A stretch of 10,057 nt of DNA from an uncultured Atopobiaceae bacterium (GTDB lineage: Bacteria; Actinomycetota; Coriobacteriia; Coriobacteriales; Atopobiaceae). The notes under the pieces were generated by a model. That model was not told where the DNA came from. It searched no databases and saw only the letters and a list, made by a program, of their open reading frames with translations. Below, piece after piece: positions 3,488-3,810 of this stretch (positions are counted from its first letter, which is position 1; the number at the start of each line of letters is the position of its first letter). A program made the translations under genes and the position numbers. The DNA lies in the NCBI GenBank assembly GCA_944321005.1, contig CALUJT010000060.1:1-10057 (forward strand), given 5' to 3'.

Positions 3488-3501
3488 GTATACGCGTATA
3501 C
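3488..3501. promoter_or_regulatory. Perfect 14-bp palindrome GTATACGCGTATAC (operator candidate, left copy)
   Basis: A perfect two-fold symmetric 14-mer lies between the divergent ABC ATPase and small-ORF genes. A near-identical copy (13 of 14 bases) lies at 3797-3810. It overlaps a TATACT -10-like hexamer (3497-3502) facing the small ORF, so a bound protein would block that promoter. The GTATAC half-sites resemble GntR-type operators, but no GntR-family gene is in the window. Confidence 0.5.
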
Positions 3502-3502
3502 T
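3497..3502 (+). promoter_or_regulatory. TATACT -10 element for the small-ORF transcript
   Basis: TATACT matches the -10 consensus in five of six positions and lies eight bases before the ATG of the five-codon mini-ORF, so the transcript would be almost leaderless. A perfect TTGACA is present at 3460-3465 but is 31 bases away, too far for a standard -35. No good -35 exists at 16-18 bases, so an activator may be needed. Confidence 0.4.
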
Positions 3503-3510
3503 AGATAGAC

Positions 3511-3528
3511 ATGGCCAACGACACGTAA
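3511..3528 (+). CDS. Possible five-codon leader peptide (MANDT)
   Basis: The reading frame is ATG, four codons (Ala, Asn, Asp, Thr) and TAA. It starts eight bases after a TATACT element and ends 12 bases before the hairpin that hides the small-ORF ribosome site. Position and size resemble leader peptides of translational attenuators, where ribosome stalling or passage changes a downstream hairpin. It has no ribosome site of its own, so it would need leaderless initiation. It could be a chance ATG. Confidence 0.25.
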   Translation: MANDT

Positions 3529-3540
3529 GTCCCGTTCGCT

Positions 3541-3569
3541 GGGCCGCACCTCCGAAGGGAGGTGAGCCC
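3541..3569 (+). promoter_or_regulatory. Hairpin that sequesters the ribosome-binding site of the small ORF
   Basis: CACCTCC (3547-3553) pairs perfectly with GGAGGTG (3558-3564) around a GAAG loop. GGGC (3541-3544) and GCCC (3566-3569) add an outer stem. GGAGGTG is the Shine-Dalgarno sequence of the ORF starting at 3571, with six-base spacing. The folded RNA would therefore be untranslatable until opened. No T-run follows, so this is not a terminator. Confidence 0.7.
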
Positions 3570-3570
3570 C

Positions 3571-3690
3571 ATGGATCAGCTGATTGCACTCCTCAAGATC
3601 GCTGGCGCGCTGGCCAGCTTGATTGCAGGTATCATCCGGATTCTGTCCGCAGCGAGCGAGTTCCGCAACCGGGATGAGAAGGGCCGCTAG
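3571..3690 (+). CDS. 39-residue hydrophobic small protein (type I toxin-like or membrane-active peptide)
   Basis: I do not recognise this exact protein. It runs from ATG 3571 to TAG 3690, with a near-ideal GGAGGTG site six bases upstream. Residues 3-28 form a Leu/Ile/Ala-rich helix long enough to cross a membrane (it begins DQLIALLKIAG), with single charges at Lys9 and Arg23. Residues 29-39 are a charged tail (EFRNRDEKGR) with net positive charge. This plan matches small toxins such as BsrG or TisB and also amphipathic peptides such as phenol-soluble modulins or leaderless bacteriocins. Codons such as ATT, GCA and TTG are commoner here than in neighbouring genes. It is divergent from a LanFEG-like exporter, which could handle it if it is a peptide. 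Initiation signal, hidden ribosome site and stem-loop at the stop all argue for a real gene. The function is not known. Confidence 0.6.
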   Translation: MDQLIALLKIAGALASLIAGIIRILSAASEFRNRDEKGR

Positions 3691-3761
3691 CCTAGCGAGC
3701 TAGCGGCCCATCCCCATCTCTAACGGGCGCGGCCCTGCCACCCACAGCGGGCTGTGCCGTT
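3676..3761 (-). ncRNA. Candidate short antisense RNA overlapping the 3' end of the small ORF
   Basis: A promoter-like element on the minus strand (3796-3768) predicts a start near 3761. Directly after it comes a CACAG/CTGTG hairpin (3756-3743). About 35 bases on is the 11-bp stem-loop at 3709-3681, followed on this strand by TTCTC. Termination there would give an RNA of about 85 nt complementary to the last codons and terminator of the small-ORF mRNA, as in convergent type I toxin-antitoxin pairs. If it reads through, it could instead be the leader of the ABC operon. Confidence 0.3.
3681..3709. terminator. 11-bp stem-loop over the small-ORF stop codon
   Basis: GGGCCGCTAGC (3681-3691) pairs perfectly with GCTAGCGGCCC (3699-3709) around a 7-nt loop. 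The TAG stop of the small ORF lies inside the left arm. Bases after the stem on the plus strand (ATCCCCATCTC) are only weakly T-rich; on the minus strand TTCTC follows. It is probably a bidirectional terminator or mRNA-stabilising 3' structure. Confidence 0.6.
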
Positions 3762-3767
3762 GGCTAC

Positions 3768-3796
3768 AGTATACCCAACTGAAGGCAGCACCATAA
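3768..3796 (-). promoter_or_regulatory. Minus-strand promoter candidate facing the small ORF
   Basis: TATACT (3773-3768) lies exactly 17 bases from a weak -35, TTATGG (3796-3791). The 14-bp palindrome copy at 3797-3810 abuts the -35, and a GTATAC half-site (3769-3774) overlaps the -10. It could drive an antisense RNA or, with readthrough, the ABC-kinase operon. Confidence 0.4.
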
Positions 3797-3810
3797 GAAT
3801 ACGCGTATAC
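3797..3810. promoter_or_regulatory. Second palindrome copy GAATACGCGTATAC (operator candidate)
   Basis: It differs from the perfect palindrome at 3488-3501 by one base and lies 309 bp from it. The two bracket the small ORF and its possible antisense RNA. The shared ATACGCGTAT core suggests one regulator binding both sides, possibly with DNA looping. Confidence 0.45.

Follow-up and report, generated by a model that had tools for sequence, protein, structure and literature searches.

A putative fold-locked type I toxin-antitoxin family with a predicted 3′-overlapping antisense RNA in Coriobacteriia

What does a small gene with a concealed ribosome-binding site do beside an exporter in a gut-lineage bacterium? 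The 10,057-nt stretch of Atopobiaceae DNA analysed here (the window) carries a 39-codon gene adjoining an ABC transporter, and an earlier note made from the letters alone had read it either as a gene resembling a type I toxin whose ribosome site is locked or as a membrane-active peptide handled by the transporter. Comparing the locus with its relatives, we put the chance at roughly three in four that the cassette represents a type I toxin-antitoxin family that combines a fold-locked mRNA with a 3′-overlapping antisense RNA and is linked to LexA in some clades. We infer its transcripts, toxicity, antisense action and SOS induction from sequence.

The cassette encodes a single-helix membrane peptide framed by RNA hairpins. 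On the plus strand, a −10 box (TATACT, 3497–3502; predicted transcript start near 3509) precedes a five-codon mini-ORF read directly from the sequence (ATGGCCAACGACACGTAA, 3511–3528), a Shine-Dalgarno-sequestering hairpin at 3547–3564 (CACCTCC at 3547–3553, GAAG, GGAGGTG at 3558–3564) and the ORF itself (3571–3690). A further hairpin (3678–3712; arms 3678–3691 and 3699–3712) lies over the stop codon. All five elements had been described in the earlier note and are present where it placed them; the ORF and both hairpins recur in relatives and so stand beyond chance. The mini-ORF lacks conservation, which rules it out as a translated leader: L020 and L003, both close copies, share the leader without its ATG, so it is part of the 5′ pairing arm read as codons. 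The peptide has 39 residues, a charged tail and one hydrophobic stretch (Kyte-Doolittle maximum 2.37 over 19 residues), and the small one-helix hydrophobic form aligns in 60 copies, which were selected partly for hydrophobicity. Absent from the earlier note are a pairing between the 5′ and 3′ ends, a promoter that points inward from the right end and the scattering of copies over different sites.

The peptide family recurs across the window's order. When 60 relatives were searched first, it turned up in the genus of the window, and a 30-copy profile (E≤1e-5) matched 63 of 395 genomes of the order, spread over 19 of 123 genera. Within the window's genus, 11 of 31 genomes carry it, one of them (G025) doubtfully, with the match inside a 135-aa frame. 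With a profile built from 8 copies and a loose threshold of E≤0.1, 93 of 396 genomes of the class gave a match. Searching genome contigs for the DNA pattern of the 3′ arm gave 45 loci, 19 of them in Collinsella, and a script found the family ORF in 13 of those; carriers found in this way include Collinsella aerofaciens, C. ihumii and other Collinsella. The remaining 26 loci, outside Collinsella, hold no family ORF (one has an unrelated 35-aa frame) and are treated as chance matches. A phylum scan matched 8 of 396 genomes at E≤0.001, seven from the window's order; the eighth match has an internal stop and lies in a 749-aa frame, and was counted as spurious. In the class scan, 11 genomes from other orders matched at E 0.016–0.058, nine of them inside frames of at least 183 aa, and neither of these two sampled scans yielded a convincing copy outside the window's order. 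The cassette is scattered in Coriobacteriia, including gut Collinsella. One genome (L045 840–2500, L046) encodes peptides of 47–50 aa with a longer tail and a strong hairpin at or just after the stop codon.

Profile searches placed the peptide in no named toxin family. Pfam and NCBIfam gave no toxin family at cut-off for 7 members, and Pfam likewise gave none for 30, the lowest E being for DUF6223 (0.0024, 4 members). TisB_toxin (PF13939) matched 6 of the 30 below threshold (best E 0.048; no match for the window copy). One member scored 12.1 bits against a cut-off of 25. Rfam returned nothing in the window at gathering scores, and among PHROGs one of 30 members matched a single unnamed family (E 0.0023). 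No copy was found in phages by tblastn with the window peptide, in plasmids by tblastn with one Collinsella peptide, or in viral contigs by the 3′-arm DNA pattern.

Comparative analysis used cassettes gathered by explicit features. A script collected 60 distinct cassettes from the fetched loci, asking for a hydrophobic ORF of 25–52 aa, a Shine-Dalgarno-like motif upstream of it, and two sides that match each other in inverted orientation over 7 nt or more; unrelated ORFs were taken out by hand, and removing 15 near-identical copies left 45 for comparison. The set is therefore biased towards possessing these features at all; that selection did not extend to the promoters, to the stop hairpin, or to where the stems lie, how they covary and which strand they prefer.

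Selection on the ORF is mostly purifying. dN/dS between the window copy (L001) and its two closest relatives is 0.17 (L020) and 0.26 (L003), that between these two, both at the same site, is 0.38, and the range among L001, L020, L003 and L021 is 0.17–0.54. Comparable values came from L006–L007 (0.35), from L027, L030 and L053 (0.18–0.27) and from the Collinsella copies (0.21–0.50). Values were higher in clades with few changes: 0.51–0.76 in the L019 clade, 0.48–0.65 in G227 and 0.53–1.34 among L040, L050 and L071. Two pairs had zero synonymous changes.

The two ends of the mRNA appear to pair with each other through long-range stems. The 5′ arms A (3514–3524) and A2 (3531–3536) face the 3′ arms A2′ (3746–3751) and A′ (3754–3764), all on the plus strand; the A2 and A2′ arms were taken from duplexes and sequence, and of the two helices only A entered the pair counts. 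Between them lies stem B, the best supported, with its 5′ arm GGGCCGCACC at 3541–3550 and its 3′ arm GGCGCGGCCC at 3726–3735 on the same strand and one A-C mismatch in the window copy. When 45 leaders were joined by a spacer to their 3′ ends, RNAalifold returned one helix, stem B, whose 8 core pairs are standard in 356 of 360 cells, the other four being A-C. Across stems A and B in a 44-row alignment, 91.3% of cells form standard pairs against 83.7% when shuffled (A alone 83.4%, B 98.2%), and slid versions of the stems are 28–55% paired. Double changes fill 65 cells against 16.9 ± 4.0 in shuffles, a count matched by none of 500; because the shuffle control is inflated by related sequences and the structure was derived from the same sequences, the variety of pair types matters most. 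The leader-3′ duplex is also stronger in native combinations, at −54.6 kcal/mol against −43.5 kcal/mol with 3′ ends swapped between copies, and among the 45 possible 3′ ends the native one has a median rank of third. Compensatory changes are found in a long-range stem, and sequence comparison points to a leader that pairs with the 3′ end via two covarying stems, a feature new here.

The same mRNA probably hides its ribosome site, as prediction and conservation both indicate. At least three of five Shine-Dalgarno core bases lie in the paired 3′ arm of the local hairpin in 44 of 45 copies, with a median hairpin z of −2.0. The earlier proposal of a type I toxin-like gene whose ribosome site is locked gains support here by the conservation check that came with it, since the protein and the Shine-Dalgarno hairpin are both kept in relatives. 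Stem B and the hairpin overlap by a few bases (3547–3550 in the window) and so would compete at the edge. Stem B is within the minimum-energy fold in 25 of 44 copies; the window copy folds without it, and forcing it costs 10.8 kcal/mol. As a switch that opens the Shine-Dalgarno, stem B was rejected: imposing B leaves most of the core unpaired in just 3 of 44 copies.

Strand preference can help to tell an RNA fold from a DNA repeat. A DNA-acting repeat should be indifferent to strand. On the mRNA strand, the stems hold 16 G-U against 4 A-C pairs (p 0.012, from copies that are not independent). For the transcribed arms, the sense strand gives the stronger duplex in 32 of 45 copies (p 0.0013). 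The duplex preference is significant only when restricted to the transcribed arms; across the unrestricted region, sense and antisense duplexes do not differ significantly (23 vs 21, p 0.54).

Conserved signals at the right end predict a separate antisense gene. In 39 of 45 copies an inward-facing −10 matches the consensus at 5 or more of its 6 bases (the best hit no more than 3 positions from the aligned one). Upstream of it, −35 boxes at spacers of 16–18 average 3.24 matches against 2.16–2.51 at other spacings, and at least 4 of 6 bases match in 16 of 45 copies against 2–7 at control spacings. In the window copy, the minus strand carries the −10 TATACT at 3768–3773 and, at a spacer of 17, the −35 TTATGG at 3791–3796, a moderate box that is closer to consensus in some relatives. 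The sense −10 matches 5 or 6 of 6 bases in 34 of 45 copies; this score alone is weak evidence because the best of about 48 positions was chosen, and the sense promoter shows no −35 enrichment (2.42 vs 1.96–2.67).

The hairpin over the stop codon is predicted to terminate transcription in the antisense direction. It overlaps the stop codon in 44 of 45 copies (median z −2.1), beginning only within the codon in 4 of the 44. The flanking ten nucleotides are T-rich one way only, averaging 4.27 T antisense against 1.05 sense. On the coding strand, A per 10 nt there is 4.30 against 1.94 in the preceding 40 nt (n 43, p 3e-8), supplied by the lysine and glutamate codons before the stop. In the window copy, where the U-run is weak, the predicted product would be a minus-strand RNA of about 93 nt, from 3761 to 3669 with both ends inferred, and the complement of the 3′ arms and of the stop hairpin. 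A putative antisense gene that overlaps or adjoins the toxin mRNA is marked by conserved promoter and terminator signals, additional to the compensatory changes.

Possible operators flank the window copy. A perfect 14-bp palindrome, GTATACGCGTATAC (3488–3501), overlaps the sense −10 and is a possible operator; its site is the only match to the pattern GTATACGNGTANAC in the window's genome, which is 85% complete. As a family-wide operator the palindrome was rejected, bearing merely a loose likeness to sites in L019, L023 and L024. The 12-mer ATACGCGTATAC occurs at both cassette ends, over the sense −10 and, in a second exact copy at 3799–3810, just outside the antisense −35. The pair is possibly a shared operator.

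In some clades, the toxin promoter is putatively under LexA, in the manner of tisB. A LexA-type pattern, CGAACNNNNGTTYG, fixed after some copies had been viewed, matches upstream of the toxin start in 19 of 60 copies (3 expected) and in 12 of the 45 non-redundant ones against 2.25 expected, both at shuffle p≤0.05. Of the 11 copies in one Collinsella clade, 10 carry the box at exactly −104, as do 4 of the 5 non-redundant ones. Other copies in the genus (four of G227, one of G143) are without a strong LexA-type box, and the window copy has none. Like boxes stand upstream of lexA and recA genes in Collinsella, of recA in another family and of lexA in the window's own genome, these lexA-like and recA-like genes being named by reading the sequence rather than by profile search. 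Genome-wide, the pattern is barely more frequent than its reversed control (43 vs 41 in six genomes); the argument therefore depends on where it stands, ahead of the cassette and of lexA-like and recA-like genes.

These features suggest how the cassette might work. The plus-strand mRNA would encode a one-helix membrane peptide that, by analogy, could depolarise or perforate the membrane of its own cell. Its strong Shine-Dalgarno would be concealed in the local hairpin, and pairing between the 5′ leader and the 3′ end would yield an inert, folded-back mRNA. From the separate right-end promoter, a short antisense RNA ending at the stop-codon hairpin would be made and, being fully complementary to the 3′ arms, would trap the mRNA for degradation. 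In copies with a LexA-type box, DNA damage would lift toxin mRNA above antisense RNA, as in tisB/IstR-1.

Each of these controls has a counterpart in a known type I system. In E. coli, tisB is described as LexA-repressed with a structured mRNA (PMC8309996, PMC4147584), and those accounts match the present cassettes in the small single-helix membrane peptide, in the inaccessible, structured Shine-Dalgarno and, for some copies though not the window's, in the LexA-type box at the toxin promoter; the sub-threshold TisB_toxin matches add a weak protein likeness. IstR-1 is described as divergent and acting on the 5′ UTR, whereas the antitoxin predicted here is cis-encoded and overlaps the 3′ end. 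In Helicobacter, the aapA mRNAs of aapA/IsoA are said to be kept locked by a long-distance interaction together with hairpins at the Shine-Dalgarno (PMC6733600), a likeness to the 5′-3′ lock that we draw by description; unlike in that account, the antisense RNA predicted here covers the 3′ end. The Bacillus pairs bsrG/SR4, txpA/RatA and yonT/SR6 are alike in layout, Gram-positive type I RNAs being reported to overlap at their 3′ ends with the ribosome site hidden (PMC4147584), and SR6 is given as 100 nt long (PMC5848175). They differ in that our peptides match no such family at cut-off and that the descriptions in PMC4147584 mention no 5′-3′ lock or LexA link.

LexA control, a 5′-3′ lock and a 3′-overlapping antisense RNA are so far known from different systems. 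We lean, somewhat beyond even odds, towards an Actinomycetota type I family apart from the known ones that combines LexA control (in some clades), a 5′-3′ fold-back lock and a 3′-overlapping antisense RNA whose terminator U-run lies inside the toxin's last codons. Type I systems are described as known only from Proteobacteria, Firmicutes and Tenericutes, to which a 2025 paper adds Cyanobacteria (PMC12390103), and among the titles listed by our searches of the open-licence literature none reports one from Actinobacteria or Coriobacteriia. If the reading is right, the type I range widens to a major gut lineage, and an SOS-linked membrane toxin would have arisen, or survived, in a lineage remote from E. 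coli. Thanks to its covarying stems and the sequence set, the family is directly testable and offers a model for finding more.

The window's site is one of several that the cassette occupies, and it is usually empty. Among 22 other same-genus loci fetched by their regulator gene (at least 80% identity), all but L160 could be followed as far as the exporter, which left 21. Seventeen of these have 78–181 nt between the reference points and no cassette; three hold 666–672 nt, and one (244 nt; L144 of genome G003) has a truncated cassette whose left part is lost. The sister genome G003 holds a full copy, L019, elsewhere. In L143, the insert at 925–1436 encodes a toxin recognised as ParE at E 1.6e-10 together with its DUF6290 partner, and L156 and L157 carry the same ParE-type module DNA at 92–93% identity over 512 nt. 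The exporter/regulator junction thus appears to be a shared landing spot for toxin-antitoxin modules. Ten same-genus copies share both flanks in three pairs and one flank in L023/L024; the flanks of L001 and L019 match none of the others. Same-strand tandem copies lie within a few kilobases of each other in some other genera (L045 840–2500, L048, L049, L052, L053).

Such scatter raises the question of whether the cassette is itself a miniature mobile element, its inverted ends serving as transposon terminal repeats with the ORF and hairpins riding along. This explanation would account for the long inverted ends, for copies that lie in tandem or at various sites, and for a window site empty in 17 of 21 relatives. 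We consider it unlikely: the G-U preference and the stronger transcribed-arm duplex favour the sense strand (the whole-region comparison being not significant), −35 boxes at promoter spacing lie outside one end only, and the ORF is under selection. The arms also co-change across clades, though matched repeats could do likewise, and comparison of the window site with empty sites recognised no target-site duplication, although the junction has diverged.

A non-toxic membrane regulator or stress peptide, controlled by antisense RNA and in some clades by LexA, is likewise improbable. A single helix with a charged tail would be in keeping with such a role, and a regulated promoter and an RNA lock would suit it too, but patchy presence (11 of 31 genomes in the window's genus), different sites and tandem copies suit a toxin-antitoxin system better. 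The alternative in the earlier note, a modulin or leaderless bacteriocin that the neighbouring transporter would export or resist, fits the size, the hydrophobic helix and the position in the window but is hardly credible: the junction lacks any insert in 17 of 21 relatives and holds a ParE-type module in three and the truncated cassette in one, the nine other same-genus copies have flanks unlike the window's, and such a peptide would need neither antisense RNA nor lock. A type I toxin-antitoxin cassette remains our reading of the locus. Palindromes, for example around GGGGTCTGTCCCC, stand at gene-free junctions (L139, L141, L142, L145–L147, L151, L153–L155 and L158) and are possibly terminators or repeat elements.
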